Notes under the pieces: generated by a model
The model's database searches: none
The model's input: only the letters and a program-made list of their open reading frames with translations
What the model was told of the DNA's origin: nothing
Part shown: piece after piece, positions 2,135 through 61,976 of the stretch
Numbering within the stretch: position 1 is the first letter of the stretch
Layout of the letters: every line of letters begins with the position of its first letter
Assembly: GCF_000743525.1 (NCBI RefSeq)
Contig: NZ_JQGK01000013.1
Span: 1 to 64,000, forward strand
Direction: 5' to 3'
From: Sulfurospirillum sp. SCADC
GTDB lineage: Bacteria; Campylobacterota; Campylobacteria; Campylobacterales; Sulfurospirillaceae
Length of the DNA: 64,000 nucleotides
Made by a program: the position numbers and the translations under genes

Positions 2135-2365
2135 CTCTGCACAAAAGTCATTTTTATCTTAGATTTTTCTAGTATCTTTCGCTCTTTTCACGTTACATGT
2201 AAAATGTTTTTTCTTTATTCTACCAAGCATTTTTACAACTCACATCAAAATAAATTTTATTTCTTAGGATTCGTAGTATTTTAAAAGCACCTAGCGGTGG
2301 GCTTCTATAATTTTTATTCAATTTTAGCTACTATTGAGTAAGATTTTACACGATACTGGACTCAA

Positions 2366-5005
2366 ATGGTTATGATACCTCATGTGCGTTTTATCATTTT
2401 TTGTGTCAAATGTATGGTGGGGATGTCTCTGCTATCGACGCATGCGTCCGCTATTAATGGTGAACATACAAAAGTGACATTGCAACTCTCTTGGTTTCAT
2501 CAATTCCAATTTGCAGGCTACTACGTTGCAAAGGAAAAAGGGTATTACAAAGAGGTGGGACTTGATGTTGAGATTATTCCTTTCCAATTTAGCGTCAATA
2601 GCGTTCATGACGTTGTAGCACAGAAAACAGATTTTGCTATCGGGCGAGAGACTTTGATCGTTGAGAGAGCACTTAATCAAAAAATTGTCGCCCTTTATGC
2701 CTTGTTTCAAACTTCGCCTTTGGTCTTTATCACAAAAGAATCGTCTGGCATTACCTCCTTACACCATTTTGCAAGCAAGCGCCTTATGGCAACATTGAAC
2801 GACTCTTCAGAAGTCTCTTTAAAAGCCATGCTCAACTCCCACCATCTAAAATCTCAAGATTACGCTTTTATCGAACATAGCCATAATATTAACGATTTGA
2901 TCGATGGAAAAGTCGATATTATGTCCGCGTATCTCTCTAAAGCGCCCTTTGATCTGAAACAACAAGGGATTGCGTACACGATTTTTCATCCCAAAGAGTA
3001 TGGGTTTGATATGTACAGTGATTTTTTATACACCAGCGAAACGCTCATCAAAAAAACCCCAAAGCTCGTTGAAGCCTTTAAGCAAGCCTCACTCAAAGGA
3101 TGGCAATACGCCTACTCGCATATTGAAGAGAGTGCCGAGCTTATTTTAGAGAAATACAACACCCAAAAGCTCTCCAAAGAGGCGTTAATCTATGAAGGAG
3201 AAGAGCTTAAAAAACTCTCATACTATCAAACTGAAACGCTTGGGAAAATGGATAAAAACAAGCTTCAAAGAATTTATGATCTCTACAATGTTATGGGGTA
3301 TATTCCCACAAAAATCAAGATTGAAGATTTTGTGCAAGACCGTTTTGGCGAGCTAAGTGACACAGAAAAAGCCTATTTGGAAGCAAAAAAAGAGATCAAA
3401 GTCTGTTCCGATCCCAATTGGATGCCATTTGAAAAAATTGAAAATGACAAACTAAAAGGGCTGAGTGTCGATTATCTCAATCTCATCGAACCGATCATAG
3501 GTATCCCCTTTACACTGGTTCCAACTGTCAGTTGGGACGACTCTTTACGGTATGCCAAAGAGCGCAAATGCGACATGTTTTCACTCGCCATGAGCACACC
3601 AGAGAATGAACGCTTTATGGATTATACTAAACCCTATCTCTCAACGCCCATTGTGATCGCGACCACCAATGATAAATTTTTTATTGCCAAAGTGGAAAAG
3701 ATCCTTGATAAAAAAATAGGTGTGGTGAAGGGCTATTCGCTCGTGGCATTACTGAAGCGTGAATACCCTACGATTCAGCTTATTGAGGTTAAAAACATTA
3801 AAGAGGGGCTTGAAAAAGTAGCCAGAGGCGAACTGTACGGTTATGTTGATAGCTTGATGACCGTGGGGTATATGATTCAAAAAGAGTATCCCACTATGTT
3901 GAAAATTGCGGGAAAATTGAATCAAACATGGAGTATGGGCTTTGCCGCACGCAATGATGAGCCTGAACTCGCTCAGATTTTGGAAAAAGCGTTAAGCACC
4001 CTCGATGAGAATACACAACAGTCTATTACTGCCAAATGGGTGAATATTCACTATGAAAATGGATTTGATTATGCTCTATTTTGGAAATTAGCCTTTGTGA
4101 TCCTCCTTCTTTTTATGCTAATGATTTATCGCTACCGAGTCATGCAACGCTACAACACCAAAATTAAAAAACACATCGAAGTGATCGACCAGTACGTACT
4201 TTTCATCAGTGCCAATAACGAAGGTATGATCACCAACGTTAGCGAAGCGCTGTGTCAACTCAGTGGCTATACCAAAGAGGAGCTCCTAGGAGAATCGGAA
4301 ACGATTTTAAACCATCCTGATGTTTCCACCAAACGGTTTGAAACGGTTTTAAGAGCAGTACTGAAAGCCCAAAATTGGGAAGGTGAGCTGAAAAGCATTA
4401 AAAAAGATGGTACGATTTATTGGGTTCATGCGCGTGTTTCGCCTATTGTCGCTAAAAATGGAATGATCCAAGGGTATAACAGTTTCAGGGTAGACATTAC
4501 CGATAAAAAGCGTATTGAAGAGATTTCGCAAACCGACCAACTGACCCAAATTTACAACCGCCTTTCGTTGGATCAACACTATCAAAAAGAGCTTTTACGG
4601 GCTTCTCGCACGCCTTCAAATCTCTTCTCTTTGATCTTAATCGACATTGACTATTTTAAAGACATTAACGACTCTTATGGGCACACCATGGGCGATACGA
4701 TTTTGGTGGAGCTGGCACAATTGATCAAACGGCACATCCGATCCATCGATATTTTTGGACGATGGGGTGGCGAAGAGTTTTTGATTATCTGCCCGAACAC
4801 CGCTCAAAAAGAGGCATTTCATCTGGCAGAAAAGCTACGCCTTATCATTGAGAAGCACTCTTTTGGAACGCATATCTTTCAAACATGCAGCTTTGGTGTC
4901 ACCCAATACCAAGAGCAAGACACCAAAGACAGCATGTTTATCCGCGCGGATAAAGCACTGTATGCCGCTAAAACAACCGGACGAAACAAGGTAATGGCAC
5001 TTTAA
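2366..5005 (+). CDS. Membrane diguanylate cyclase with two periplasmic binding domains, PAS and GGDEF
   Basis: The 879-residue protein starts with a signal-like segment (about 1-28). Next come an NMT1/THI5-like solute-binding domain (about 35-330, LSWFHQFQFAGYYVAKEKGY) and a family 3 solute-binding domain (about 345-570, SDPNWMPFEK). A transmembrane helix follows at about 573-593, then a PAS domain (about 600-720) and a GGDEF domain (about 725-879). The active site reads GGEEF and is preceded five residues earlier by RSID, a product-inhibition I-site, so it should make c-di-GMP and be feedback controlled. The two external domains suggest that a small periplasmic ligand, possibly a pyrimidine or amino acid, sets its activity. 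A TATAAT at 2308-2313 is a possible -10. The start codon is not certain because no strong ribosome site is visible. The 3' end overlaps the convergent fdh-like gene by 4 bp. Confidence 0.85.
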   Translation: MVMIPHVRFIIFCVKCMVGMSLLSTHASAINGEHTKVTLQLSWFHQFQFAGYYVAKEKGYYKEVGLDVEIIPFQFSVNSVHDVVAQKTDFAIGRETLIVERALNQKIVALYALFQTSPLVFITKESSGITSLHHFASKRLMATLNDSSEVSLKAMLNSHHLKSQDYAFIEHSHNINDLIDGKVDIMSAYLSKAPFDLKQQGIAYTIFHPKEYGFDMYSDFLYTSETLIKKTPKLVEAFKQASLKGWQYAYSHIEESAELILEKYNTQKLSKEALIYEGEELKKLSYYQTETLGKMDKNKLQRIYDLYNVMGYIPTKIKIEDFVQDRFGELSDTEKAYLEAKKEIKVCSDPNWMPFEKIENDKLKGLSVDYLNLIEPIIGIPFTLVPTVSWDDSLRYAKERKCDMFSLAMSTPENERFMDYTKPYLSTPIVIATTNDKFFIAKVEKILDKKIGVVKGYSLVALLKREYPTIQLIEVKNIKEGLEKVARGELYGYVDSLMTVGYMIQKEYPTMLKIAGKLNQTWSMGFAARNDEPELAQILEKALSTLDENTQQSITAKWVNIHYENGFDYALFWKLAFVILLLFMLMIYRYRVMQRYNTKIKKHIEVIDQYVLFISANNEGMITNVSEALCQLSGYTKEELLGESETILNHPDVSTKRFETVLRAVLKAQNWEGELKSIKKDGTIYWVHARVSPIVAKNGMIQGYNSFRVDITDKKRIEEISQTDQLTQIYNRLSLDQHYQKELLRASRTPSNLFSLILIDIDYFKDINDSYGHTMGDTILVELAQLIKRHIRSIDIFGRWGGEEFLIICPNTAQKEAFHLAEKLRLIIEKHSFGTHIFQTCSFGVTQYQEQDTKDSMFIRADKALYAAKTTGRNKVMAL

Positions 5006-7421: not shown

Positions 7422-8708
7422 ATGGAAAAACATACACTCAACTCACATTACGATGTCATCATCGTAGGTTCAGGTCCAGCGGGGCTTGGTGCGGCGTTTA
7501 AGCTTGCGGAAAATTCAACATATTCCATTTTACTCGTTGAAAAAAAGAAGATAAGCTCAGGCGGACTTCGCAATGACTGTAAGCAAAATTACACCTATCC
7601 TGTGGGATTTCCCTATGAGCATTGGAGTAAAGAAGAGGCTGATGCGTTGCTCATCGAGGTTGCGACACATCTTCATCCTAAAATCGAGCCTAAAATCAAT
7701 CTTGAAAAATACATCAACCGTGCGAAAAAGATAGGCGTTGAGATTCTAAGCATCGACCAAGCCCATGTGGGAACCGACAAATCTTCCGCGCTTATTGGGG
7801 ACTTGGTTGAGAAACTCAAATCTTTACATGTAAGCATTGCGCTTAAAACTGAAGTGAAAGAGGTGAGCGAAAAACGCAAGCAAATCACCTTAGAAAATGG
7901 AGACGTTATCACCTTCAATGCGCTCATTTTAGCCCCAGGCAGAGCCGATTATGATTGGTTGCAAGAACAGATGGACAGGCTTGGCATTGCGTATCATGAC
8001 AACATCGTGGACATTGGTGTGCGGATTGAAACGAGGGAAGAGAATTATCCCATTGTGCGGGATTACTATGACCCTAAGATTTTGTTTCCCAAAAAAGTGC
8101 GTACCTTTTGCACCAACTCAGGGTGTGCGCACATCGTGCGTGAAAAATACAAAGGCTACTACTCGATCAACGGACACTCCCTCTCTCGTGAGAATGAGCG
8201 CAATAACTTGGTCAATTTTGCGATGCTCAAAACCATTCGTTTAACCGAGCCTGTGGTGAGTGGTCAGCAGTTTGGAAAGATACTCGGCGAAATGGTGATG
8301 CAACTGAGCGGTGGTTCTGTCATCATGCAACGGGTGGGGGATTTTCGTATGGGTGTGCGCTCTAAAGTAGAGACGTTTAACAATGACTTGTACGACTTTG
8401 AACCCACGCTTAAAAGTGCCGTAGCAGGCGATTTGTCCTTGTGTATGCCCGCTAAAATCTTGCGAGACATCTGGAAATCTCTCAAGATGCTAGACACCAT
8501 CATTCCTGGCGTTCTTCACCCTTCCACCATCATCTATTACCCCGAAATCAAAACCTACTCCAATAAACCCGAATTTATCGATAAACACTTTTGTGTGAAA
8601 GAAGGCTACTACATCATCGGAGACGGCGCAGGAACAAGCAGAGGCATCACCGCAGCGTGGGCGTCGGGTATTCGTGCGGCTTTGGGTATTTTAAAGGAGA
8701 GGGCATGA
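7422..8708 (+). CDS. FAD-dependent oxidoreductase (COG2509-like), overlapping cas9
   Basis: The 428-residue protein begins with a Rossmann dinucleotide motif (VIIVGSGPAGLGAAF, residues about 12-26). It ends with a second FAD-contacting segment, GYYIIGDGAGTSRGITAAW, typical of uncharacterised FAD-dependent dehydrogenases related to COG2509. The substrate is unknown. The divergent fdh-like operon starts 63 bp away, so both promoters lie in 7359-7421. The last four bases are ATGA: the cas9 start codon (8705-8707) overlaps this gene's TGA. This arrangement gives translational coupling and implies a shared transcript with the CRISPR genes. I see no domain that ties it to CRISPR immunity; it may simply be the chromosomal flank whose promoter drives cas9. 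Confidence 0.8.
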   Translation: MEKHTLNSHYDVIIVGSGPAGLGAAFKLAENSTYSILLVEKKKISSGGLRNDCKQNYTYPVGFPYEHWSKEEADALLIEVATHLHPKIEPKINLEKYINRAKKIGVEILSIDQAHVGTDKSSALIGDLVEKLKSLHVSIALKTEVKEVSEKRKQITLENGDVITFNALILAPGRADYDWLQEQMDRLGIAYHDNIVDIGVRIETREENYPIVRDYYDPKILFPKKVRTFCTNSGCAHIVREKYKGYYSINGHSLSRENERNNLVNFAMLKTIRLTEPVVSGQQFGKILGEMVMQLSGGSVIMQRVGDFRMGVRSKVETFNNDLYDFEPTLKSAVAGDLSLCMPAKILRDIWKSLKMLDTIIPGVLHPSTIIYYPEIKTYSNKPEFIDKHFCVKEGYYIIGDGAGTSRGITAAWASGIRAALGILKERA

Positions 8709-11700
8709 CATCGTTGATTTCACTGGATTTGGGTGGGAAAAATACGGGATTTTTTAGTTTTACAGCTAAAGACGTTTCAATAATAGATACTTTTCAATCA
8801 GGAACGATTATCTATGATGAAAGCTTTGTGCTCTCACAAGTCGCACGACGAGGCAAACGACACGGTAAACGTAACAACCTACGCAACACGCTAGTCAAGC
8901 GACTTTTTTTGCTTCTTTTACAAAAGCATTATGGGCTTAGTCTTGATTTTTTACCCGACGAAATTTTGGGACTTTTTAATAAACGAGGTTACACTTATGC
9001 AAGTTTTGAAATCAAAGAAGATGAAAAAGAAAATCTTGAAAGCGATATTTTAAAAGAGTTTTTGAATGACAAACTCAATTACACTATACAAAATGATGAC
9101 GAAGTAGAAGAGTTTTTAAATCAGATAGCTTCAAATGAAGAGACGTTCAAGAACTATAAAAAGGATTTTGAAAATTTATTTGGAGCTTCGACGCATCAGC
9201 CAAAAAAACAAATTGAACTTATTGATGAGATAAAAAAAGACCTTGAAAAAGAAGATGCCAAAGAACTTTTAGATGGGTTAAAAGTCATAAAAAAAATTAT
9301 AGACGAATTTCACAAACAACAAAACCAAGGCAATCTCCCACGGGCTAAGTATTTTGAAGAACTTTATCTTGAAATAGAATACAATCTAAAAATCCAAAAA
9401 TTCTTTACATGTAACCATCTTCACATCAATGACATGCAATATCTCATCGGCAATCTCTCAAACTATCAGCTCAAAGAGCTAAGACGCTACTTTAACGATG
9501 AAGCTATGGCAAAAGAAGACTTTTGGTCTTGCGAAAAACTGCATCGCATCACATGGCGATTTATCCAAAGTTGGCACCCAAAAAGTCCTGAAGACAAACA
9601 AAGGCAAAAAGAGAATCTTGCAAACCTTAAAACCAAAAGTATTATTGAGTTTTTAACCACCACCAACCCACTGATGACCATTCCGCCGTATGACGATATG
9701 AACAACCGTGGAGCGGTCAAATGCCAAACATTGCGACTCAATGAGGAGTATTTGGATAAGCATCTACCACATTGGAGAGCCATAGCACATACGCTTGCAA
9801 GTGAGACTCAAAAAGAAAATCTTGAGGGTGTGACCGTAAAAGGCTACAGTGAAGATAGCACGCTTTTACACCGCATTTTGGACACCTCTAGCATCATTGA
9901 CCCTTATAGACTTAGAAGTGATGAGATAGATAGTTATTGTGATGTATTGACCAAAGACAATGCTTTTGCATTGAAAAAATTTGCAAAAGAGTACTATCAA
10001 CTTGTCAAAGAAAAAGTACGAACAGGTATTTGGACAAAAGACGATGATATGTTCAAAAAGTGTGACCACAATCCACCACACAAAAACAATCAAATCCACA
10101 ATTTAGTCGCAGGAATCTTAGGCAAACCCATCGCAAAAGAGCGGTTTGAAGCGTTTGAAAATGAACTTTGGAATGTAAAATTTGGCAACAAAAAACTCTC
10201 AAGCTATTGTAAAAACATTGAAGAGTTTAGAAAATCAAACGGCAACCTTTTTAAGCAGATTGTAGAATTGGGTGAAGATAAAGAGGTACAAAAATATCAA
10301 AAAGAGTTAAACGAATGGGTACGAAAAATCGGTGAGTTTTTTAACATCGAAACGCCTTATAGAGCACGCTTTAACAACCTTTTTTCCATGGCGCAACTTC
10401 ATACCATCATCGATACCACACGCAGTGGTTTTAACGCTACATGTAAATGGTGTAGCTGCGAAAATCAATACCGAGCTAGCACAAGAATAGAGATAGATGA
10501 GCAAACAGGGGAAATTACTACCAATGCCAACTGCCAACGGCTCCCAGCCGATACACAAAGACCTTTTAGTGGCAAGATTGAGCGGTACATCGACAAACTA
10601 GGTTACGAGATAGCCAAAGTCAAAGCCAAAGAGTTGGAGGGCATCAAAGAAGATACGATAGATTTAAAAATCATCTTAGAGCAAAACGCTTTTGCGTATG
10701 AAGAGTCTATTCGAAATGCCAAAATCAAAAATGCCAATGCAAAAGCTAAAAAAGCTCTTGAAGAAGCACAAAAAAGAGGGCTTAAAAATATTGAAGACAA
10801 AACCAAAAGAATTAAAGATTTTAGCAACAGCATTTGCCCCTATTGTGGGCAAAGTTTAGGCGAAGATGGCGAGATAGACCATATCTTATCACGAAGTTAC
10901 ACCCTTAAAAAGTATGATACCGTTTTCAACAGCGAAGGCAATCTTTTGTATGTTCACCAAAAATGCAATCAAGCAAAACTTGCAAAAACAGATTATTCTT
11001 TACAAGATTTAAAAATAGATATTTCTCAAAAATGGATAGAAGAACAAATCGCTACTATCAAAACCTACAAAACTTTTTCAGTTCTTACGCAAGAACAACA
11101 AAAAGCTTTTAAATATGCCCTATTTTTAGATAACTCAAATGAAGCTTACCAAAAAGTAATAAGTTGGCTTAGAACCGACCAAAGCTCACGAGTAAACGGT
11201 ACGCAAAAATATTTGGCTAAAAAAATCCAAGAAAAGCTCAAAGCGATGTTTCCAGCTAAAACATTTAACTTTGAGTTTATCTTAGCCGATGCCAATGATG
11301 TGCATGATTTGAGAATTAAAGCGTATCAATTGCCAGAAAAGCCAAAAGACTCTAAACAAGAAACCTACAGTCATACTATAGATGCGGTTATGAGTTTGGT
11401 CAGTGTATGGGATAAGGTATTGCCAAAAACAGAAAAACCTACAAAAGAAGATATTTTAAAATTTGCCAATGTCGAAAATTGGAGTGCCCTCAATAATGAA
11501 TTTTTAACCAAAGGCAAATCAGCAAATCAAAAAATAGAAGAGATGATACAAGCCAATGATTTTGGTCAAAAAAATATGAGGCAAGTTTTTAGTAAGCCCA
11601 TTTTTAAAGATGAATCAATAGGAGAAAGGTATAAGCCATTTGTTCGCTATCACAATCAATTTTACATAGGCTATCCGATAAGCATAAAAGACGGATACGA

Positions 11701-12790: not shown

Positions 12791-13781
12791 ACACATCTAC
12801 ATCGACGAATACGGCACATTCTTAGGCAAAACAAGTGCCAGACTTACCATCAGCCAAGGTGGGCAACTCCAAAAAGAGATTGCCCTCAGTCGCATTAAGT
12901 CTATCAACATTTTAAAAGGCGGTATCGCACTCTCAAGCGACCTCATAGAAGCGTGTTCGCTTCGTGGGATTAAGCTCTTTTTTCTTGACTTTAAAAACAT
13001 AGCACATACCTCGCTAAGCTCTACTGCTTCTCACGCCGTGGCAAATGTACGACGTGCGCAGTTTTTGACGATAGAGAGTGATGAAGCAAAAGAGATAGCA
13101 CGAGCTTTGATACTGGGCAAACTCAAAAACCAACGCACAACACTTCAATACTTTCACAAATACCTCAAAACCACCGACAAAGAGAGCATAAAATTAGCAA
13201 ACGCTATCGAAAAAATCAAACAAACAAGCCAAAGCCTCAAAACCATTGAGCTGAAAAATCGCCCTGATTGGCTTAGTATCATCATGGGAAAAGAAGGAGC
13301 GGTGGCGAGTATTTATTTTGATGCGGTGGGTTCGGAGTTACTTTATGATTTGGATTTTTCTCATCGCATCGGAAGAGGAGCAGACGACATCGTCAATTCT
13401 GCGCTTAATTACGGCTATGCCATTTTGACCTCTTTTGTCTGGCAAAGCGTCATCAACGCAGGACTTGAACCCTTTGCAGGCGTCTTACATGTAAACAGAC
13501 CAGGTAAACCCTCCCTTGTGCTTGACATCATCGAAGAGTACCGTGCGTGGGTGGTCGATAGAAACATCATCAAACTCAAATCCCACCTCAAAGGCAAAAG
13601 CTTTCTTGATAGCACCATCAAGAAAAAAATCATCGAAGAGATAAACGCCACCATGAATAAAAAATACCTCTACAACGCCAAAAATCTTTCGCTTCAAAGC
13701 ATCATGCAACGCCAAGTTTACAGGTTAACAGGAGCATTTATGCAACAAATGCCTTATAAAAGCTATAGCTTTAAGTGGTAA
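12783..13781 (+). CDS. cas1: CRISPR integrase Cas1
   Basis: The 332-residue protein is the catalytic subunit of the Cas1-Cas2 spacer integrase. The N-terminal beta domain (HIYIDEYGTFLGK) is followed by the helical domain. The metal ligands are E171 (GKEGAVASIYF), H236 (LHVNRPGKPSL) and the D248/E251 region (LDIIEEYRAWVVDR), all intact. It overlaps cas9 by 8 bp and is followed 3 bp later by cas2, so the genes form one operon. It contains a TTACATGTAA palindrome at 13485-13494, read as LHV. Presence of an intact integrase agrees with the recent, ordered growth visible in the array. Confidence 0.96.
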   Translation: MTKHIYIDEYGTFLGKTSARLTISQGGQLQKEIALSRIKSINILKGGIALSSDLIEACSLRGIKLFFLDFKNIAHTSLSSTASHAVANVRRAQFLTIESDEAKEIARALILGKLKNQRTTLQYFHKYLKTTDKESIKLANAIEKIKQTSQSLKTIELKNRPDWLSIIMGKEGAVASIYFDAVGSELLYDLDFSHRIGRGADDIVNSALNYGYAILTSFVWQSVINAGLEPFAGVLHVNRPGKPSLVLDIIEEYRAWVVDRNIIKLKSHLKGKSFLDSTIKKKIIEEINATMNKKYLYNAKNLSLQSIMQRQVYRLTGAFMQQMPYKSYSFKW

Positions 13782-14075: not shown

Positions 14076-14643
14076 ACTCCCCATCCACCTCATCAGACAA
14101 TACCTCTTTTGCCCTAGAGTTGTGTACTTTTTAGAAGTGCTTTGTATTCCAAAAACAAGCCCCTCGTGGGTCAAAGAGGGTGAAGTTCACCATAAAAAAC
14201 AAGCCGAACTTTTTAAACGACGCACCCTTGCACGTTTTCAGCTTGAAGAAGCACTTTTTAAAAGCAATGTCACACTCTCTCATGACGCCTGTAACTTTTA
14301 CGGCATTTGCGATGGACTTCTCATCTCTTCCACACACATCTATCCCGTTGAGATAAAACTGCACGGCTCAAAACCAACCACTGCACAAAAAATGCAACTC
14401 ATCGCTTATGGCATTTTGGCGGAGAAAATATACAAAAAAAGATTTGAACTAGGCTTTATACTTTATGAAGAAAAAGGTAAAACCATCCCTTTACATGTAA
14501 ACGAAGAGGAGAAGAAAATACTTACATGTAAAGTCGAAGAGATACGCCATCTGATAGAACAAGGCAAACTTCCTTACAGTAACGCAGATGATGGAAAATG
14601 CACACAATGTGAGTTTGAAAATTATTGTAATGATAGGTTTTAA
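14032..14643 (+). CDS. cas4: Cas4 adaptation nuclease
   Basis: The protein is 203 residues from the ATG at 14032; a TTG six bases earlier is possible. It has the Cas4 RecB-like nuclease layout: first cluster cysteine in FCPR (C27), HHKKQAE, the nuclease Asp and Glu-Lys in CDGLLI...YPVEIK, QMQLIAYGILAEK-like QhXXY motif (QLIAYG), and the C-terminal cysteines CTQCEFENYC that complete a 4Fe-4S cluster. Cas4 trims prespacers and helps set PAM and orientation. Its presence with cas9-cas1-cas2 defines subtype II-B. Two TTACATGTAA palindromes lie in its 3' half (14491-14500 and 14522-14531). The tracrRNA terminator follows immediately on the other strand. Confidence 0.92.
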   Translation: MTKTTLRKNPLNTYKLPIHLIRQYLFCPRVVYFLEVLCIPKTSPSWVKEGEVHHKKQAELFKRRTLARFQLEEALFKSNVTLSHDACNFYGICDGLLISSTHIYPVEIKLHGSKPTTAQKMQLIAYGILAEKIYKKRFELGFILYEEKGKTIPLHVNEEEKKILTCKVEEIRHLIEQGKLPYSNADDGKCTQCEFENYCNDRF

Positions 14644-17242: not shown

Positions 17243-17380
17243 AAGCTCCTTTTAAATTGTTACCTTTGTATTATAGCATATCCGCTTCATTTGATTTTAC
17301 ATGTAAAGTACGGTAAAAGGCAACACAACCCATGGCTAAGATAGTTTTTACTATGATTATGGAAAATTCAGGAGAAAACA

Positions 17381-18846: not shown

Positions 18847-19647
18847 TTAGGTGTATAGAATAAAATTGCTTTTTTGAAGCAGTGTTTTGGGTGAATAACC
18901 GTAAATTTTGCGAAAAGAGCGGATGAAATGTGACTGATCGCTAAAGCCGGCATGCAATCCTGCAAGGCTTAAGGATTCGCCTTCAAGCATGAGCGTTTTG
19001 GCTTTGCAAATGCGCTCCGCGATGATGTATTGGTGTGGGGTAAGACCTGTGTGATGGGTAAAAAGCCTGAGAAAATGGTACTTACTCACCTTAGCCGTGA
19101 TGGCAAGCGCGTCTAGACTCATGTCGGAAGCAATGTTGTCATGAATGTACTCTAGTACGAGCGACATCGCTTGGGAATCATTACATGTAAACGGATAAGG
19201 CGTAGCGTGATGCGCGAAATGCGCGATGAGATAAGAGAGGGCGTCGATGAGTTTGGACTCCACAAGCATCGTCGCTTCGTTGGTGTAAACTGCTTGAAAA
19301 AAGAGGAACAACCGAGCATAGAGTTCATTATCTTGGATGATGTGTTTCTCAAAAATAGGCATCTTTTTCTCGCCGTACATCTGCTCATACAAGCTGCTTA
19401 AAAGCTCCACATTGGGGTAAAAATTGGTGTACTGCCACGCGTGAGAATCCCCACCGTGAATTTCACCAGGGTTGATGATGCGAGCCGATCGCTCATACGC
19501 TTGGGTGATTTTATGCTCATGAAGCGACGTAAACATGCCATGGTGCGTTAGCCCAATCGTGTAAGTGTCGTGAAAATGGCAGGAAAAATTACTGGTCGAA
19601 TCGGCGATATTTTCAAACGCCGTGTTGTTTAGTAACGTGGAATTCAT
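18847..19647 (-). CDS. AraC-family transcriptional regulator
   Basis: The 266-residue protein has an N-terminal cupin-like sensing domain (about 20-150, with HFHDTYTIGLTHHG and INPGEIHGGDSH). The C-terminal AraC DNA-binding domain of two HTH motifs lies at about 165-262 (DALAITAKVSKYHFLRLF, then AGFSDQSHFIRSFRKIYGYSP). It probably controls the adjacent EamA transporter in response to a small ligand. A TTACATGTAA palindrome lies inside it at 19181-19190. Confidence 0.9.
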   Translation of the reverse strand: MNSTLLNNTAFENIADSTSNFSCHFHDTYTIGLTHHGMFTSLHEHKITQAYERSARIINPGEIHGGDSHAWQYTNFYPNVELLSSLYEQMYGEKKMPIFEKHIIQDNELYARLFLFFQAVYTNEATMLVESKLIDALSYLIAHFAHHATPYPFTCNDSQAMSLVLEYIHDNIASDMSLDALAITAKVSKYHFLRLFTHHTGLTPHQYIIAERICKAKTLMLEGESLSLAGLHAGFSDQSHFIRSFRKIYGYSPKTLLQKSNFILYT

Positions 19648-20104: not shown

Positions 20105-20602
20105 TTAATGTTTTACATGTAAGCTTTTGATCTTCCATAAAATAATCACACGCACTAAAAAAACACCACTCAAAAGACCATAACACAGACTCACTCCAAG
20201 AATAAACCACAGCTCAGAAACCACGGGTAATTGACGAGCAAGCATGACTCCTACAGCAAATTTCAACCCAAAAAGAACCATCATCCAACCCAACCAAAGC
20301 CAACTCCCTTTGATCGCAAAGGCATTGTGTTCTTCCATATAAACAGCATTGTAAAAAGCTCTTATGCGAATGCCCAGTGCCATCACCATCATCATCCCAA
20401 GACTCCATGCAACCACACCCATACTCATGCCAAAAGCTGACACAACGCCATAAATAGAAAAAAGCACCATCACGAGAGGAAGTATCAATGCCCTAACATA
20501 GGGAACAATACGATCACGACTCTGCATCCACCCCAACCCTAGCAGGAGCACAAAAAGCAGATAAACCCACATCGGTGTTCGCTCCAAAATTACTATCAAC
20601 AT
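20105..20602 (-). CDS. Multi-pass inner-membrane protein
   Basis: The 165-residue hydrophobic protein shows about five membrane helices (for example MWVYLLFVLLLGLGW and LWFILGVSLCYGLLSGVFLV). It recalls small DUF6622-like membrane proteins, but I cannot assign a function. The C-terminus ends KSLHVKH, encoded across a TTACATGTAA palindrome at 20113-20122. It is divergent from the AMMECR1 gene, with both promoters in 20603-20669. Confidence 0.7.
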   Translation of the reverse strand: MLIVILERTPMWVYLLFVLLLGLGWMQSRDRIVPYVRALILPLVMVLFSIYGVVSAFGMSMGVVAWSLGMMMVMALGIRIRAFYNAVYMEEHNAFAIKGSWLWLGWMMVLFGLKFAVGVMLARQLPVVSELWFILGVSLCYGLLSGVFLVRVIILWKIKSLHVKH

Positions 20603-20669: not shown

Positions 20670-21212
20670 ATGCAAAACGTGATTCTAGCGATTGCCAAAC
20701 AGGCGATCCAAGACGGCTTTGAGCACACGTCCACGATCGATACAAATGCACTTCTCACACAGTATCCTGAATTTTCCAAACCCAAAGCGACCTTTGTAAC
20801 GCTCACGCTTGATGGTCAGCTTCGTGGCTGCATCGGCTCGCTCATCGCGCATCGTCCTCTTTTAGACGACCTGATCCACAATGCCAAAGCCGCCGCGTTT
20901 GATGACCCACGTTTTTATCCGCTGAGTCTTGAAGAGTTTTTACATGTAAGCATCGAAGTCTCGCTTTTGAGTGAGCCTGAAGTCGTTGAATACCGCGATA
21001 TTGACGATCTCAAATCCAAAATTACCGCTGGGATGGATGGCATCATTCTTCAAAAAGGAGAGCGAAAAGCGACCTTTTTACCCCAAGTGTGGGAACAACT
21101 GCCCACCTTTGAGCTTTTCTTCTCGCATCTGTGCCAAAAAGCAGGGCTAGATGCGAACTGTTTAGAAAATCATCCCGATATTTCGCGCTACAGGGTCCAA
21201 AAGGTAAAATAA
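20670..21212 (+). CDS. amrA: AmmeMemoRadiSam system protein A (AMMECR1 domain)
   Basis: The 180-residue protein matches the AMMECR1 family: KATFVTLTLDGQLRGCIGSL at residues about 34-53 holds the invariant LRGCIG, and KAAAFDDPRF-PLS follows. Human AMMECR1 is the eukaryotic relative. The biochemical role is not established. It starts behind AAGGAG, and its TAA overlaps the ATG of the radical SAM gene by one base. The three genes form the conserved AMMECR1-radical SAM-MEMO set. Confidence 0.93.
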   Translation: MQNVILAIAKQAIQDGFEHTSTIDTNALLTQYPEFSKPKATFVTLTLDGQLRGCIGSLIAHRPLLDDLIHNAKAAAFDDPRFYPLSLEEFLHVSIEVSLLSEPEVVEYRDIDDLKSKITAGMDGIILQKGERKATFLPQVWEQLPTFELFFSHLCQKAGLDANCLENHPDISRYRVQKVK

Positions 21213-22204
21213 TGGACTATTTTAAAGCGGAAGGTACACGTCTGGTTTGCTTGCTCTGCGCGCACTATTGCCACCTCAAAGAGGGACAAACAGGGCTGTG
21301 CGGTGTGAATAAAAACGTAGATGGCACTATCCAAAACCTCGTGTACGGCTACCCTGTAGCATTACATGTAGACCCTGTGGAGAAAAAACCACTCTACCAT
21401 TTTTTACCCGACACCAGAACCCTTTCACTGGGAACCATCGGCTGTAACTTTACCTGTTCCTTTTGCCAAAACTGGAGCATTTCCCAAGAAAAATCCTTAC
21501 ATGTAAAAGAGTTTATCGCACCCGAACAGATTATCGAGATGGCACTCAAATACGAATGCGCCTCCATCGCCTACACCTACAATGAACCGACCATTTTTTA
21601 CCCATACGCCCATGACATCGCTCTTTTGGCACATGAGAGAGGTATTAAAAACATCTTCGTGACCAACGGTTTTGAATCCCCTGAGGTGATCAACGATATG
21701 AAAGGCATCATTGACGCAGCCAATGTTGATCTCAAATCGTTCAACCACAACTACTACAAAAAAGAGCTTGGCGGTGGGCTTGAAACCGTTTTGGAAAACC
21801 TCAAACATTTCAAACGAAACGGCATCTGGGTCGAAGTGACCACGCTGATCGTTCCTACCAAAAATGACTCGGACGCTGAACTAACCTCTATCGCATCGTT
21901 TATTGCCAAAGAGCTTGGCGTTGAAACACCGTGGCATATTAGCGCTTTTCATCCTGATTACCACGAGCAAGGGCTTCTTGCAACCTCCATCGAAACACTC
22001 AAACGTGCCGAAACCCTTGGCAAAGCCGCAGGACTCAAACACATCTACATTGGAAATGTCGGACTTGAAAACCCGACGAGATGCGTTACATGTAACGCTG
22101 TTTTAATCAAGCGCAAACGCTTTGAGGTGATGGAAAACCATCTGATCGATGGCGGATGTTGTCCAAAATGTAAAACCAAACTCGCAGGAGTTTTTGATGA
22201 ATAA
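21212..22204 (+). CDS. amrS: AmmeMemoRadiSam system radical SAM enzyme
   Basis: The 330-residue protein starts at ATG 21212 (MDYFKAEGTRLVCLLCAHYC). It has an N-terminal cysteine cluster (CLLCAHYCHLKEGQTGLCGV) and the radical SAM motif CNFTCSFC (CxxxCxxC) at about residue 75. A C-terminal CVTCN/CCPKC pair resembles a rubredoxin-like or auxiliary metal site. It is related to PflA-type activases but the substrate is unknown. Translation is coupled on both sides: one base overlaps amrA and eight bases overlap amrB. It carries TTACATGTAA at 21497-21506 and 22086-22095. Confidence 0.93.
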   Translation: MDYFKAEGTRLVCLLCAHYCHLKEGQTGLCGVNKNVDGTIQNLVYGYPVALHVDPVEKKPLYHFLPDTRTLSLGTIGCNFTCSFCQNWSISQEKSLHVKEFIAPEQIIEMALKYECASIAYTYNEPTIFYPYAHDIALLAHERGIKNIFVTNGFESPEVINDMKGIIDAANVDLKSFNHNYYKKELGGGLETVLENLKHFKRNGIWVEVTTLIVPTKNDSDAELTSIASFIAKELGVETPWHISAFHPDYHEQGLLATSIETLKRAETLGKAAGLKHIYIGNVGLENPTRCVTCNAVLIKRKRFEVMENHLIDGGCCPKCKTKLAGVFDE

Positions 22205-23685: not shown

Positions 23686-23981
23686 ACTATCACCTAACTT
23701 TAAATCAAAATTCCTCTTTCAAAGACCTTTTTTTGCGCATACACGCTTTACATGTAAAGCTACATTGACGATAAATTGATCCTATAAAATTCTTAACGTT
23801 TCAAAATGTAACTTATTTTTTACACAATATTTTAATTTCTTTATATTTTTTGAACTTACATCCAAAATTGAACTATTTTAAGCGTAATTTAGTAACAGTT
23901 AAAAATTTTCCACACTTTTTTTGCTCAATATGAGAGGGAAACGATGCTATTTATTGGTGTCAAAAACCTCATTGAAAGAGG
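23686..23981. other. Gene-free AT-rich interval between convergent genes
   Basis: I see no credible gene here. It holds one TTACATGTAA palindrome (23748-23757) and long T/A-rich stretches. A 60-codon frame beginning at 23944 runs into aclA antisense and is not supported. Confidence 0.6.
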
Positions 23982-35306: not shown

Positions 35307-36890
35307 ATGATTAACAACGAAATTTTTTATCTTTTTGCCATCATCTCCGTTGGCTACATCTTAGGCAATATTAAAATCAGAGGCTTCTCGCTTGATGTGA
35401 CAGCAATGCTAATTGTAGCGCTCATTGCAGGGCATTATGGTATGGTTATTTCAGACGCATTTCAATACTTTGGCTTGGCGATTTTTATCTACGCTGTGGG
35501 GCTGCAATCGGGTCCTGGTTTCTTTGACACGATTAAAAACGAAGGGCTTAAACTCAACCTCATTGCAACAGCGCTTTTACTTCTTCTTTTTGCGATTATT
35601 TTTGGATTTGGCTACTTTTACGATCTTCCTAAAACCATCATCGAAGGTATCTTTACAGGAGCACTGACCTCTGTTCCAGCCCTCGCAGCAGCCCTTGAGA
35701 TCAAACACACGCCCACCACTTCGGTCATCTTTGGTTTGGTGTATCCTTTTGGCATTGTGGCAACGGTCTTGTTAATTCGTATGCTTCCAGTGCTGTTTCG
35801 TGTGGACATTGACAAAGAGGTCGAAGCGTATGAAGCAGCACAAAAAACCCGTTTTCCAGATATTTTGACCCACAATTTTCGTATCACCAATGAAAATTTT
35901 AGAAACACCGAGATCAAAAAATCAAAAATCGAGAGCATGACTTCTACGGTTATTGAGCGTATGACGTTGGATGGCAAACTTGATCAAACAAGTGATGATG
36001 CTTCGCTTAGTTTTGGCGATGTTATCAGGGTCGCAGGAACCGAAGAACAACTGGCAAACTTGAGCATTATTTTAGGGGAGAGGATTGGTGAAGAGCATGA
36101 GTTTCAAGACAATATGTCCGTTTTTAGACTTCTAACCACCAACAAAGAGATCGTCGGTAAAAAAATCGGCATGATCAAAGAGCTCAAATCCCTTCGTGCT
36201 ATCATCACCAAAGTCAGACGTGCGGGTATTGATATTCCTGCGTATCCTGATTTGACGTTACGCCTTGGTGATAAACTCTACGTGGTTGCGCCCGATACTT
36301 ATACCGAAAAAGTAACCAAACTGATCGGTAATGATCTTTTAAAATACCCTGCTGCGGACTTTTTGCCTATCTCGCTCGGTGTTGTTTTTGGCATTTTACT
36401 TGGAAGTATTCCGCTTTATATCCCAGGCGTTGGTGACATCAAACTCAGTTTTGTGGGTGGCATCTTGATTACCGCGCTTATTTTGGGGCGACTTGGACGC
36501 GTAGGCCCTATTGTCTGGAACCTTTCACCACACTCAACGACACTGTTAAAAACCCTTGGTCAGCTCATTTTTATCGCCACGCTTGGTACCAACGCAGGCA
36601 AATACCTTGTCGAATCACTCGAAAACAATGGGATCTTACCGATCGTCATCGCCCTTGGTGCGTTACTGCTTTCCATGAGCCTGATCGCCTTTACATGTAA
36701 AACCATTTTGAAGATGAACTTTATCGATGTTTTGGGCGTTATCTCTGGTGCGATGACATCAACGCCATCTCTAACGATGGCAAACAATATGACCAAAACC
36801 GACTACCCCTCCATCGCGTATGCCGCTGTTTACCCACTGGGGTTGGTGCTTGTGATCGTCCTTGCGCAACTGGGTATGAAGATGATGTAA
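35307..36890 (+). CDS. AspT/YidE-type transporter with RCK_C domains
   Basis: The 527-residue protein has two membrane blocks of five to six helices (about 1-170 and 350-527), each of AAE-transporter type, around two cytoplasmic TrkA_C/RCK_C domains (about 190-345). This is the layout of aspartate:alanine exchanger-like transporters. The substrate is probably a dicarboxylate or amino acid; export of C4-dicarboxylates would fit the metabolism in this window but is inference. A TTACATGTAA lies at 36691-36700. Confidence 0.87.
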   Translation: MINNEIFYLFAIISVGYILGNIKIRGFSLDVTAMLIVALIAGHYGMVISDAFQYFGLAIFIYAVGLQSGPGFFDTIKNEGLKLNLIATALLLLLFAIIFGFGYFYDLPKTIIEGIFTGALTSVPALAAALEIKHTPTTSVIFGLVYPFGIVATVLLIRMLPVLFRVDIDKEVEAYEAAQKTRFPDILTHNFRITNENFRNTEIKKSKIESMTSTVIERMTLDGKLDQTSDDASLSFGDVIRVAGTEEQLANLSIILGERIGEEHEFQDNMSVFRLLTTNKEIVGKKIGMIKELKSLRAIITKVRRAGIDIPAYPDLTLRLGDKLYVVAPDTYTEKVTKLIGNDLLKYPAADFLPISLGVVFGILLGSIPLYIPGVGDIKLSFVGGILITALILGRLGRVGPIVWNLSPHSTTLLKTLGQLIFIATLGTNAGKYLVESLENNGILPIVIALGALLLSMSLIAFTCKTILKMNFIDVLGVISGAMTSTPSLTMANNMTKTDYPSIAYAAVYPLGLVLVIVLAQLGMKMM

Positions 36891-38515: not shown

Positions 38516-38547
38516 GATTAATAGCGTTACATGTAACGCTATTAATC
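38516..38547. repeat. 32-bp perfect palindrome centred on TTACATGTAA
   Basis: Positions 38516-38531 and 38532-38547 are exact complements with no loop; the centre is AGCGTTACATGTAACGCT. It lies 8 bp after the chemoreceptor stop and before tRNA-Ser. A 22-bp version of the same sequence lies at 30368-30389. Confidence 0.85.
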
Positions 38548-47053: not shown

Positions 47054-47233
47054 CACCGGACTCCTTTACATTCGTTTCTACTTTATTCTATAACGGCATA
47101 ACTTAAACCATTACAATCCCACAAAGTTAAGTCATAAAACGCGTTACATGTAAAACGAAATTTTGACTTTTCTTGAAAAAAAGAGCCTTGTCATGCTATA
47201 CTTTACGAAATATCGAATTACAAAGAGTATTTC

Positions 47234-49638: not shown

Positions 49639-49672
49639 TTACATGTCAAACGCATCACTTTTTTACATGTAA
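49639..49672. promoter_or_regulatory. Paired ACATGT palindromes in the fumarase/MFS divergent gap
   Basis: TTACATGTCA (49639-49648, one mismatch) and TTACATGTAA (49663-49672, perfect) lie 24 bp apart between the divergently transcribed fumarase alpha and MFS genes. The spacing is near two helical turns, which would suit a dimeric regulator. Because the motif is also common inside genes, a regulatory role is only possible. Confidence 0.35.
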
Positions 49673-50929: not shown

Positions 50930-51859
50930 GATTTTTTTATCAACCGTTGAGAGGGCTAACTGCTCAATCTCTTTACATGTAAACCAACCATCGACGTTTA
51001 CATGTAAAGCATCATCTTGAATGATTTCAAGCTCGAGTTTAAAATGGCTGTAAGTGTGAATCACTTTGCCAAGACTTTTGGCATCGCTTGGTTTTTCATC
51101 GAGTTGAACAAATCCCCAAAGCCCGTGAAGCAGTCTCTGCGTGCGTTGCATAAGCCCCAACTTTCCCTCTTGAACAACGACCAAGGCAAAGCGCTTTTTC
51201 GTTGGCACTTTCGCTTTTTGAACGGCTTTTGGATAATTTTCGGGAGCATTTTTACCTTTACATGTAAACTCAAGCGGACACACCGAACAGTTTGGGTTTT
51301 TAGGTGTGCAGATCATTGCACCAATGTCCATCATCGCTTGATTATGCTCGTACGGATGTTTTACATGTAAGAGTTTCCACGCCTTTTCCCAAAGCACTTT
51401 GTCATCTTTGACGCTTAGCGCAAAGTAGCGACACACAACACGCTTCACATTGGCATCCAAGATGGGAAGCGCTTGATGGTACGCAAACGAGCAAATGGCG
51501 TGCGCCGTGCTTTTACCGATGCCTTTCAGCCCGCCAAGCTCTTCAGGATTTTTGGGCAAAACACCCTTACATGTAAGCGCAGTATGGTGAAGATTTTGAG
51601 CTCTGGTGTAGTAGCCTAGTCCTTCCCACATTTTTAAAACATCATCCAGTGAAGCCTCAGCCACACTTTGAAGTGTGGGGAAACGCTCTAAAAAAGGAAA
51701 GTAAAATCGCTCCAAAACCGTTTTAACTTGCGTTTGTTGCAGCATGATTTCGCTGAGGTATATTTTGTACGCATCATTCGTTTGGCGCCATGGAAGATCA
51801 TGACGACCGTTTGTTTGATACCACGCGTAAATCGCCTCTTTTACATTCAAGCTAAACAC
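50885..51859 (-). CDS. mutY: A/G-specific adenine DNA glycosylase MutY
   Basis: The 324-residue protein removes adenine paired with 8-oxoguanine. It has the catalytic Glu in SEIMLQQTQVKTV, the HhH motif LKGIGKSTAHAIC, the catalytic Asp in LPILDANVKRV, and the 4Fe-4S ligands CTPKNPNCSVCPLEFTC (C-x6-C-x2-C-x5-C). A C-terminal Nudix-like domain follows. The start is GTG 51859 or TTG 51862, overlapping the end of ung. Five TTACATGTAA palindromes lie inside it (50973, 50998, 51257, 51361, 51567), by far the densest cluster of the window. Confidence 0.93.
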   Translation of the reverse strand: MFSLNVKEAIYAWYQTNGRHDLPWRQTNDAYKIYLSEIMLQQTQVKTVLERFYFPFLERFPTLQSVAEASLDDVLKMWEGLGYYTRAQNLHHTALTCKGVLPKNPEELGGLKGIGKSTAHAICSFAYHQALPILDANVKRVVCRYFALSVKDDKVLWEKAWKLLHVKHPYEHNQAMMDIGAMICTPKNPNCSVCPLEFTCKGKNAPENYPKAVQKAKVPTKKRFALVVVQEGKLGLMQRTQRLLHGLWGFVQLDEKPSDAKSLGKVIHTYSHFKLELEIIQDDALHVNVDGWFTCKEIEQLALSTVDKKILALSTMMRNIAPTS

Positions 51860-54377: not shown

Positions 54378-55775
54378 CTATTTCTCCTATTGATTTGGGC
54401 TTTGAGATGCAAAACCCTTGTATAAAATCAGGTCTAATCTCTTTTATTTTTTTGAGATATGCCTCTTTGTCGACGAATTTTACCATACTTTGTATGTGAA
54501 GCGTTTGGATGAGTTCCACATAGTGTAAAAGGAGCTGCTGGTATCTGGAATCTTCAATCTTTTTGGTAAATTCGATGTCAAACTTCACCAAATCAATCGG
54601 CAAATGCTTCAGGTATTCAAATCCGCAGTTATTGCCCCCAAAATTGCCAAGGGCTATTTTAAATCCAACCTCTTGGTAACTCTCAATAATTTCCCTAAAA
54701 CGGTGCATATTTTCATAACTTTTTTGCTCGGTTATCTCAAGAATAAAACGGTGTGGATCAATTTTGTGTTGACTAAAAAGGGTTAAAAGATAGCGTTTAA
54801 AACTGAGATTTCGAAGCGTCACTGGGGAAATTTCAACGCTAAACAGTACCTCTGTTTGAAGCAACGGTTCTATCTCTTCGACCAAAAGTTCAAACACTTT
54901 TTCATCGAATGCCCTCTCATACCCCGTATGGTTGACAATGCGCTGAATTTGCTGTTTGGAGAGCGATCCATAGGTGTGGGATTCCATGCGAATAAGGACT
55001 TCTAAAATGCTGATGTGCTCTGTTTGAAGGCTAAGTGAGGGTTGGTATTTGAAAAAAAGTTGATGCTGTTTGATCGCTTCATCAATGATCATCTGAAATT
55101 GATTGAGCTTAATATGTGGCGTGGTCTCTTCACTCTTTTTTTGCTCTTCAATGAGCATCAAAAGCCGTTCGATGAGATTGTTTGTATCGCTGTCATACGC
55201 GGCACTTAAGAGTGAAAAAGCTACTTTAATTTCGATATTGGAAATGCCCACATTTTGAACACTTTTGGTAAAAATCGTTAGAAGATGGCGAAGTTCTTTA
55301 TGTGGATGTTTGAGGTAAAGTAAAAAACTATCACTGCTGTAACGCCCAATGGCAACTTTTTTGAAACGGTGTTCTCGTAAAAAAAATTCCAATTTTTGAA
55401 TAAATTGCCCTAAAACCAAGTCTCCATTGTTGATGCCATACCGCTCATTGATGTCGCTTAAATTGTTTACATGTAAAAAGATAACGGTGGTATTTTCTCT
55501 ATCGTTAATTTTTTTAATTTTTGCGATAATTTCGGCTCTTGTGAATGTTTTGGTGATCGGGTCAATCAGGGATGTTTGAAACCCATAATAGATAAGATAG
55601 ACCGTATAATAAACATAAATAGGAATCAATAAAATTAGAAGAATAAAATTGATAGAGGTGTGCGGAAAAAGCTGATACGAGTGAAAAAAAATACCGATGA
55701 GAAGCAGGAGAGGAAACACGATTTTAAGTGCGGTAATAAATCGGTTTTCTCTCTCCTTTATCTCAGAATAGAGCA

Positions 55776-60836: not shown

Positions 60837-61310
60837 GTGGTTATTTTAGGAATCGATCCAGGCACACGGAATTGCGGTTATGCAATTCTTAAAAAAGAGA
60901 GAAATAGTCTTGTTCTCATTGAAGCGGGACTGATTAAAATTAAAGAAAAAATACTCCAACATCAGATTATGGAATTGGTTGAAGGAATCGATACGATCTT
61001 GAAACATCATACTATTGATGAAGTGGCGATTGAAGATATTTTTTACGCGTATAACCCTCAAACGGTGATTAAATTAGCACAATTTCGTGGAGCTTTGAGT
61101 CTGAAAATTTTACAAACGATTGGTAATTTTAGTGAATACACTGCACTCCAAGTTAAAAAAGCCGTAACGGGCAATGGAAAAGCAGCTAAAGAGCAGGTTG
61201 CGTTTATGGTGAAGAAGATTTTAGGGATTAAACAAGAGATTAAACCCTTGGACATTACCGATGCAATAGCTATCGCCATTACGCATGCCCAAAGGGTTAA
61301 AGTGAGTTAA
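60837..61310 (+). CDS. ruvC: Holliday junction resolvase RuvC
   Basis: The 157-residue nuclease resolves recombination junctions. The RNase-H-like catalytic residues are Asp in [14 protein letters not shown], Glu in [11 protein letters not shown] and two Asp in [13 protein letters not shown]. The start is GTG 60837 with AAAGG about six bases upstream, inside the origin's right edge. The length is normal. It overlaps the convergent thyX gene by 4 bp. Confidence 0.95.
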
Positions 61311-61921
61311 GAGGGTTCGTTGATCGTAAAAAGGTATTTATGCTCTTCAGGAAGAGCATCGTAAAGGGCATGGGCTAAATTTTGAATTTCCCAAAGTGCA
61401 CTTTTATCACTGCGCAATGTTAAAAAGTTTTGAAGGCTCCTAGCGTTTACTGTCCATGTGAGTTCGGTTTTATAGCTTTCTGGAAGGCAGTATTTGGCTT
61501 TATCGTTGCTAATGCCTTGTACGAGCACTAATCGAAGGTTTTCAAGCGCGCGGATACTCATCTCATCAACCATCTCCACACCCGTTAAAACCAAGTATTT
61601 TGAAGCACGCTCAAAATCTTTACATGTAAAGATTTCTTCGTTCTTTAATTCTTTAAGTGTGTAACGTGTTGACTTGACGGAGAGTGACGCCATACGGTGA
61701 CGTGCGAGCTCTTGAAGAAGTGCACGCGATACGCCTTCAATGTAGAAGTTATACACCAAATGCTCAAGCGTTGAAGCGTGTTTAAATTTATTACCAACGC
61801 GGTCGATGAGTTCTCTGTCTTTTTGTCCGCCTTCGTCGCTTTTGTCAAAACTTTGCCAGCAGGTACGAATCGCATCGGCACAAATGAGCAGGGGAGTGTA
61901 GTGGTTGAGTGTGATTTTCAT
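61307..61921 (-). CDS. thyX: Flavin-dependent thymidylate synthase
   Basis: The 204-residue enzyme methylates dUMP to dTMP with methylenetetrahydrofolate and NADPH through FAD. The ThyX motif [14 protein letters not shown] is present (RHRxxSxxxxSxR). I chose ATG 61921 ([14 protein letters not shown]). A perfect inverted repeat, GAGTCCCAA/TTGGGACTC (61928-61950), lies just upstream, between this gene and flgE. A TTACATGTAA lies at 61620-61629. Confidence 0.95.
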
Positions 61922-61927
61922 GTGGTT

Positions 61928-61950
61928 GAGTCCCAAGTTTTTTGGGACTC
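61928..61950. terminator. Inverted repeat between flgE and thyX
   Basis: GAGTCCCAA (61928-61936) and TTGGGACTC (61942-61950) form a 9-bp stem with a 5-nt loop. It lies downstream of flgE on the minus strand and may end that transcript; a long U-tract is absent. Confidence 0.45.
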
Positions 61951-61976
61951 ATTGTATTACATGTAAGCTAAAAAAT

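Follow-up and report, generated by a model that had tools for sequence, protein, structure and literature searches.

A palindromic 10-mer iterated throughout Sulfurospirillum genomes, a possible self-DNA tag

Introduction

DNA uptake sequences are known from two families of Proteobacteria, namely the Neisseriaceae (DNA uptake sequence, DUS) and the Pasteurellaceae (uptake signal sequence, USS), and the latter are asymmetric. Here, a palindromic 10-mer, TTACATGTAA, is described that recurs throughout the genome of Sulfurospirillum sp. SCADC (GCF_000743525.1, the host genome) and was noticed in a stretch of 64,000 nucleotides (contig NZ_JQGK01000013.1, positions 1 to 64,000), which is called the window below. 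By analogy, and with about even confidence, we take this palindrome to be a DUS-like self-DNA tag that may work as the uptake sequences of these two families do; this explanation is favored because most features match those published for DUS.

The DUS is stringently conserved between more divergent flanks, is scarce in recently acquired genes, and forms inverted pairs that serve as terminators (PMC2397512). It occurs in dialects with a fixed core, and one-mismatch forms add 21% extra copies in Kingella oralis (PMC3630211). TTACATGTAA resembles the DUS as a 10-mer at about one copy per 1–2 kb whose core is far better conserved than its surroundings (PMC2397512, PMC3630211), and also in its dialects with a constant core, its inverted pairs, and the roughly 20% more copies found at one mismatch (23% here). 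However, it is palindromic, has phased A+T flanks, and belongs to the phylum Campylobacterota. The USS has A+T tracts beside its core, and the shape of these tracts matters for uptake (PMC7811141), while a minor pilin is the likely USS receptor (PMC12616744). Abundance, close pairs, and A+T tracts beside the core are shared with TTACATGTAA (PMC7811141), but the A+T phasing of TTACATGTAA lies on both sides and reaches more than 60 bp in the host genome.

Two other systems are close in form. The cyanobacterial palindrome HIP1 (GCGATCGC) is highly iterated, has one-mismatch forms confined to the outermost bases, and, together with the alternate HIPs, has disappeared from some lineages or given way there to another palindrome (PMC4390886). 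TTACATGTAA is likewise highly iterated and lost or replaced in places, but it is another sequence, of 10 bp instead of 8, and no methyltransferase of three tested families is common to all of the copy-rich genomes. The gyrase cleavage motif is degenerate and dyad-symmetric, with helically phased composition on both sides (PMC6379681). Dyad symmetry and phasing on both sides (about 10–11 bp for gyrase, 11.25–11.5 bp here) are found in TTACATGTAA as well; in contrast, if CATG is taken as the 4-base stagger, position -4 of TTACATGTAA is mostly T, position -2 is T, and position +1 is C, where gyrase prefers -4G, -2A, and +1G (PMC12324340).

Abundance and strictness

In the window, TTACATGTAA is present in 27 exact copies, where dinucleotide shuffles predict 0.07 (none of 100 shuffles reached 27), and it is the top-ranked 10-mer of the window under a third-order Markov model. 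In the whole genome of 2,661,738 bases, 1,309 copies were counted, while the pattern read backwards, which served as the control, occurs once. The first-pass annotation, made from the window, had reported 27 perfect copies and strong enrichment; both are confirmed, and the genome-wide count, even larger, is far from expectation.

The core is strict. In a 464-kb sample of the host genome, the one-mismatch forms of all 15 classes together add only 51 copies to the 221 exact ones (23%), and 28 of these 51 have C or G at the outermost base; TTCCATGTAA denotes a one-base mutant of TTACATGTAA. Beside the core, 66% of copies have the favored T at -1 and 48% the favored C at -2, and A is almost missing (5% at -1, 3% at -2), with similar preferences for coding and intergenic copies. 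The extended form on either strand is Y-T-TTACATGTAA-A-R, lying within helically phased A+T tracts.

Conservation at aligned sites

Relatives were compared at aligned copies, a check that the annotation had proposed, and the outcome is strict core conservation between copy-rich genomes and no exact copy at the sites aligned to the motif-poor genome G009. Other 10-mers of equal A+T in the same alignments served as controls. In copy-rich pairs that are 79–81% identical overall, aligned copies were exact far above the controls (17–27%): 13 of 14 from G004 to G007 and 13 of 16 in reverse, 12 of 16 from G004 to G002 and 12 of 23 in reverse (6 gaps), and 9 of 13 from G007 to G002 and 9 of 15 in reverse. 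Closer rich pairs gave 18 of 20 (twice), 15 of 18, 22 of 22, 22 of 24, and 6 of 6. Against G009 (79–82% identity), exact copies numbered 0 of 15, 0 of 12, 0 of 12, 0 of 15, and 0 of 14 for five query genomes with overlapping sites, compared with 17–29% for the controls, and most of the lost sites are aligned in G009 without a gap. Few or no exact copies were found against the dialect genome G010 (0 of 3 and 0 of 9), G017 (0 of 4 and 0 of 5), and G022 (1 of 3).

The flanks do not share the conservation of the core. At positions also aligned to G009, the bin 5–20 bp from the center was the least conserved in all seven comparisons, which cover four genomes only and include reciprocal pairs; with all aligned positions it was lowest in five of seven, another bin being lower in two. 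Linked conservation around the sites, such as introgression would leave, was not seen, the flanks being less conserved, not more.

At 20 coding sites with a G009 orthologue, the residues encoded by the motif agree with those of G009 in a fraction of 0.42 (52 residues), compared with 0.72 for the flanking ones (429 residues). The motif occupies residue-tolerant positions yet fixes particular residues, and therefore needs selection or drive on the DNA word itself. Whichever explanation holds, a 10-bp word overrides the protein sequence at many places. A mobile-repair scar of the insertion type, another candidate of the annotation, is not supported by these data: coding copies stand nearly all in two open frames, the sites lost in G009 are mostly ungapped, and the motif codons fall where G009 often has other residues.

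Range, loss and dialects

The motif is a family trait, low in places, and scattered in one other family. Within the genus Sulfurospirillum, 17 of 24 genomes have 840–1,496 copies, and the remaining seven have 49 (G009), 168 (G022), 238 (G017), 411 (G010), 412 (G021), 605 (G014), and 608 (G019). Across the four other genera of the family (20 genomes), the counts run from 6 to 733. An order sample of 199 genomes includes 183 from outside the family, of which only four exceed 10 copies. All four belong to the family f17 (G139 with 367, G160 with 340, G210 with 96, and G190 with 48), and the other 11 sampled members of f17 have 0–10. The motif is missing from all 80 named gyrB neighbourhoods, of which about 14 belong to Campylobacterota, judged by title. 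The gyrB of the window is itself nearest to Campylobacterota records, and a phage collection gave no match for window positions 1-25000.

The gyrB tree places G009 and G017 within a set of copy-rich species (support 81/91, with an open fork). It places the G010-G014 pair (100/100) inside another mostly rich group (87/91, open), while G021 and G022 pair up close to the base of the genus, and their history is less clear. Because the tree nests G009, G017, and G010 among rich groups, their low counts are best read as derived.

Some genomes carry altered forms. In 80 kb of G010, ACATGT occurs 59 times, preceded mostly by T, G, or A, and includes 11 TGACATGTAA, 9 TTACATGTAA, and 4 TAACATGTCA; after exact TTACATGTAA is masked, 50 ACATGT are left against 10–11 expected. 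At the 33 G010 sites that fit TNACATGTNA, half-sites combine near independence (GT, for instance, is found 11 times against 9.4, and TT 9 times against 7.3), in agreement with a symmetric reader. This relaxed dialect is backed by smaller samples of G014 and G021. In 120 kb of G033, from another genus, there is no TTACATGTAA, and 13 TATCATGATA were found against 0.9 expected. The CATG center is constant in both dialects seen. No comparable alternate palindrome was found in 140 kb of the motif-poor G009 or in 58 kb of G022. TCATGA is doubled in the G033 stretches (L120, L252-L256; 130 against 63), and CATTAATG is over-represented in G017 (11 sites against 2.1), where most TTACATGTAA has been lost.

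Plasmids also carry copies, at fewer per kb than the chromosome. Plasmid pSulSP has 29 TTACATGTAA in 200,000 of its 200,667 bases, an apparent duplicated stretch being counted twice. Plasmid pSDCE1 of S. diekertiae (L344) has four exact TTACATGTAA in 40 kb, together with 14 copies of the 8-mer core TACATGTA against 0.48 expected, 10 of which are not TTACATGTAA. Five of its TACATGTA lie within 20494-21362, around a LexA-like gene. A methyltransferase match begins at base 1692 of this plasmid, and also at base 1692 of a second contig of G005, a genome of the host's genus. Close TTACATGTAA pairs were also seen in 47 viral-contig stretches (L205-L251), with up to seven copies in 12 kb (L231), and several of these pairs share a start-to-start spacing of about 30 bp.

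Placement relative to genes

Placement was counted for the 221 copies of the 464-kb sample with two mechanical gene models, which differ on single genes (the second one breaks up mutY), so that single-site assignments are approximate. Within open reading frames (ORFs), the first model gives 91 copies in the Leu-His-Val frame, 55 in the Thr-Cys frame, and 4 in the stop frame, with 71 of 221 between genes; the second gives 90, 52, and 5, with 74 between genes. The density is about 0.35/kb in ORFs, 0.8–1.0/kb between divergent genes, about 1.5/kb between co-directional genes, and 4.4–5.6/kb between convergent genes. The annotation was therefore right that copies use both usable frames and the spaces between genes, and that neither a protein motif nor an ordinary operator explains a motif of this genome-wide spread; an effect of Leu-His-Val codons does not account for the enrichment either.

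Copies also gather in pairs, 15 of which are at most 50 bp apart in the sample, against 4.1 expected. Eleven of the 15 are not within one ORF (first model), nine are wholly intergenic, and seven are between convergent genes (both second model). Five chosen pairs fold as hairpins of -18.4 to -20.8 kcal/mol (z -5.45 to -7.73). Outside the motif, intergenic copies have modest extra complementarity at 3–7 bp, and coding copies have little.

Along the chromosome, every 20-kb stretch examined holds copies, 6–15 in the host and 1–14 in four relatives. No origin or terminus trend was detected in the stretches sampled, and even spacing was not significant in 20 host stretches (variance/mean 0.64, lower-tail p 0.12). 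The described segregation sites parS, matS, Noc, and SlmA have tens of copies and are regionally biased; TTACATGTAA differs in having more than 1,000 copies with no origin or terminus concentration in the sampled stretches. A regionally biased chromosome-segregation site, which the annotation had also listed, is thus not supported.

Phased A+T flanks

The composition of the flanks is periodic. Sites with another copy within 160 bp or near the end of a stretch were dropped from the phase tests (178 of 221 were kept in the host), although the per-genome rows kept close pairs. At 128 coding sites, A+T rises and falls every 11.25 bp in register with the motif center (0.0325, where 500 draws of the null reached at most 0.014), with peaks at about 10.5, 22, 33.5, 44.5, and 56 bp from the center; across tests the period ranged from 11.25 to 11.5 bp. 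The phasing holds separately for Leu-His-Val (78), Thr-Cys (47), and intergenic (53) sites. Eight sets of control words gave 0.0020–0.0075 in seven sets and 0.0198 in the eighth, which has only 20 sites, compared with 0.0340 for the motif. At 60–150 bp, the phasing is weaker and still above the null maximum in the 178 pooled host sites. I read this phased A+T as a signal for bending or wrapping, which would place the dyad at the palindrome.

The phasing at 14–60 bp recurs in G002 pooled with G003, in G004, and in G006; G002 alone is at 0.010, and the signal is clearer once G003 is added. At 60–150 bp, G002+G003 and G004 exceed the null maximum with other phases, and G006 does not. The signal was not significant in G010 (29 sites), G160 (11), G139 (10), G013 (9), or G035 (7). 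The former sites in G009, only 24 in number, have a power of 0.0141 against a null mean of 0.0137, an underpowered comparison in which the rich counterparts reach just 0.0224.

Candidate trans-acting genes

Methyltransferases and competence genes were searched for as partners of the motif. A protein search with the D12 adenine methyltransferase of the host had matches in 39 of 59 genomes, a few of them weak or partial; D12 was also searched as a Pfam family over 44 genomes. Among the 59 genomes, no D12 orthologue was found in the copy-rich G013 (934 copies), G035 (567), and G160 (340), and one is present in the motif-poor G076 (2 copies) and G090 (1). N6_N4 methyltransferases were not found in the rich G001-G007, nor C5 methyltransferases in G005, G011, G139, and G160, in searches of the same 59 genomes. 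For the D12 enzyme, which may target CATG, NCBIfam matches were weak and below the cut-off, and PDB gave none. Since each of the three families misses several copy-rich genomes, a methyltransferase of the D12, N6_N4, or C5 family as the common cause is not supported, nor, within this scope, is the methyltransferase target that the annotation had put forward.

The transformation machinery is widespread: ComEC was found in 56 of 59 genomes, DprA in 40 of 40, and T2SSF in 44 of 44 genomes asked. ComEC was not found in G018, G028, and G041. It has an internal stop in the poor G039 and G059 and a short match in the poor G022, and an internal stop also in the rich G023 and G020. In the host genome, the T2SSE and T2SSF genes, which are like the cts genes of Campylobacter, lie side by side. 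In Campylobacter, CtsM methylates RAATTY, and uptake depends on this methylation. Loss of competence genes was rejected as the cause of motif loss, given that rich and poor genomes are not told apart by ComEC, T2SSF, or DprA; the presence of the machinery is not discriminating because it is also found in motif-poor genomes. Where dprA is split, the halves are about 23.5 kb apart in G001 (C4:153796-177886) and about 34.5 kb apart in G013 (C8:271719-306839), as if an element had inserted.

A self-DNA tag and its rivals

The data that support a self-DNA tag are the extreme abundance, the strict core with unconserved flanks, the nested loss, and dialects that keep the CATG center (two cases). Further support comes from the enrichment after genes, the close pairs, the phased A+T flanks, and the core transformation genes (ComEC, DprA, type II/IV secretion ATPase, and T2SSF). 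In such a system, a symmetric, presumably dimeric, DNA-binding component of the competence machinery would bind the palindrome on incoming DNA, and the phased bendable flanks could help the DNA to kink or wrap there. Tagged fragments would enter and recombine preferentially, and the resulting molecular drive would create and maintain copies, even at the cost of protein change. A shift in the specificity of the reader might let a new dialect spread, and loss of the reader would leave the copies to decay. More tentatively, and with less than even confidence, TTACATGTAA may be the first palindromic uptake sequence and the first such system outside the Neisseriaceae and Pasteurellaceae; no other is known from outside these two families, and literature searches turned up none. 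It would then be proper to one family of Campylobacterota, in which it has dialects of its own, and a dimeric receptor would bind it at its dyad within helically phased bendable DNA. Scattered members of a second family carry it too and could then exchange DNA with the first. If this is true, a third, palindromic system in Campylobacterota would mean that labelling of own DNA evolves repeatedly, and the nested loss and dialects would be natural experiments on the gain and loss of such labels.

Several points weigh against an uptake tag. No described uptake sequence is known to be a palindrome, and no paper joining Sulfurospirillum with "uptake sequence" was found in the collection searched. 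A search for TTACATGTAA gave no paper on the subject, judged by title. No candidate receptor for the motif was identified. The motif-poor G009 (49 copies) keeps T2SSF, DprA, and an intact ComEC, and DprA is split into two same-strand halves in the copy-rich G001 and G013. Against G009, only the two of seven comparisons that have G002 as the query give clearly less conserved flank bases, and the other five show a slight drop or no drop, so permissive position is not the whole story. The A+T phasing extends more than 60 bp from the center in the host genome, beyond the needs of a short receptor footprint, and the core copies on plasmids allow a possible advantage inside the cell. The hairpin folding of pairs gives no independent support, because two copies of any palindrome are always an inverted repeat of each other.

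The main rival is a site of chromosome architecture or topology, which we consider doubtful: a symmetric nucleoid protein or gyrase would bind each palindrome, wrap or bend more than 100 bp, and organize or relax the chromosome about every 2 kb. The A+T oscillation speaks for it, being phase-locked in both coding frames and between genes, above chance at 60–150 bp in the host, and replicated at 14–60 bp in relatives, as do the copies on plasmids and the enrichment between convergent genes, where positive supercoils gather. But the phase at 60–150 bp differs between genomes and is not above the null in G006, the sampled stretches have neither an ori-ter trend nor significant evenness, the bases flanking the motif are not conserved, and dialects and a near-complete loss in G009 are unexpected of a core chromosome site. 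E. coli gyrase sites have a 130-bp phased G+C pattern (PMC6379681), yet the gyrase preferences -4G/+8C, -2A/+6T, and +1G/+4C (PMC12324340) misfit TTA/CATG/TAA. Should the motif prove architectural, it would be a sequence-specific chromosome organizer of unusual density, with more than 1,000 strictly kept sites, and the choice between uptake and architecture can be tested in cultivable strains.

The other explanations are weaker. A selected or driven motif of an undescribed kind, such as a hotspot of recombination or a mark that protects own DNA from a nuclease within the cell, is unlikely; the excess of TACATGTA on pSDCE1 suggests a benefit inside the cell, but no linked gene was found, and a palindrome is without direction, unlike the directional motifs Chi and KOPS. 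Still less probable is a by-product like HIP1, in which an orphan methyltransferase with strand-directed repair or recombination would make and keep a palindrome that is itself functionless. The constant CATG center, the wide occurrence of the D12 enzyme, and a one-mismatch excess limited to the outermost bases, as for HIP1 (PMC4390886), agree with this by-product, while the lack of D12, N6_N4, and C5 matches, each in some copy-rich genomes, the D12 enzyme of the poor G076 and G090, and CATG outside TTACATGTAA, which is under expectation in the host sample, do not. Terminators or regulator sites grown abundant, that is, a transcription signal, would suit the convergent-intergenic enrichment, the hairpin-folding close pairs, and the modest extra complementarity beside intergenic copies; this is nevertheless highly improbable, with about two-thirds of copies inside ORFs, little extra flank complementarity there, and asymmetric dialect copies in G010 that break the pairing. 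Among the candidates that the annotation had listed, DNA uptake is the one now favored, at a level of confidence that we regard as evenly balanced; the methyltransferase target, the insertion-type repair scar, and the regionally biased segregation site are not supported.

Copies in the window

The first copy in the window is intergenic (2193..2202). The next, at 7824..7833, falls in a FAD-oxidoreductase ORF (7422-8708, plus strand), in the Leu-His-Val frame by arithmetic, while the mechanical model assigns it to another ORF on the opposite strand. The copy at 9405..9414 is in the Thr-Cys frame of ORF 8591-12790 (plus), and that at 13485..13494 in the Leu-His-Val frame of ORF 12783-13781 (plus). 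A close pair with starts 14491 and 14522 (14491..14531) is within a Cas4-like ORF (14026-14643, plus), and an intergenic copy follows at 17297..17306. The two gene models differ on the coding status of 19181..19190, and also on 20940..20949, which is in ORF 20670-21212 (plus) in one and intergenic in the other. Between these lies 20113..20122, in ORF 20105-20602 (minus). ORF 21131-22204 (plus) has two copies (21497..21506 and 22086..22095), 23748..23757 is between convergent ORFs, and 30374..30383 is a few bases 3' of the stop codon of ORF 28761-30371. Copies then stand in ORF 33758-34690 (34568..34577) and ORF 35307-36890 (36691..36700), both plus.

A copy between convergent ORFs (38527..38536) is the last ahead of a motif-free restriction stretch, and one between divergent ORFs (47144..47153) is the first past it. 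This single stretch (38537-47143) holds zero TTACATGTAA, for which the chance is 0.014 at genome density. It includes HsdR and HsdM, genes of Type I restriction-modification (38714-45626), and ACATGT is absent as well. Another copy lies between divergent ORFs (49663..49672), and mutY (ORF 50885-51862, minus) has five, with starts 50973, 50998, 51258, 51361, and 51567 (50973..51576). By the first gene model, no ORF of the 464-kb sample has more, and a longer ResB/cytochrome-c-assembly ORF equals it with five copies in 2.4 kb. The remaining copies are in a GGDEF-EAL protein ORF (54364-55776, minus; copy 55467..55476), in a ThyX-like ORF (Pfam Thy1; 61307-61936, minus; copy 61620..61629), and, as the last in the window, between genes (61957..61966). 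The two-motif Cas4-like ORF adjoins a CRISPR-like array in window 14026-16700, with 26 copies of ACGACACTTTACAAC on the plus strand (14857 to 16683) and one in reverse at 14723.

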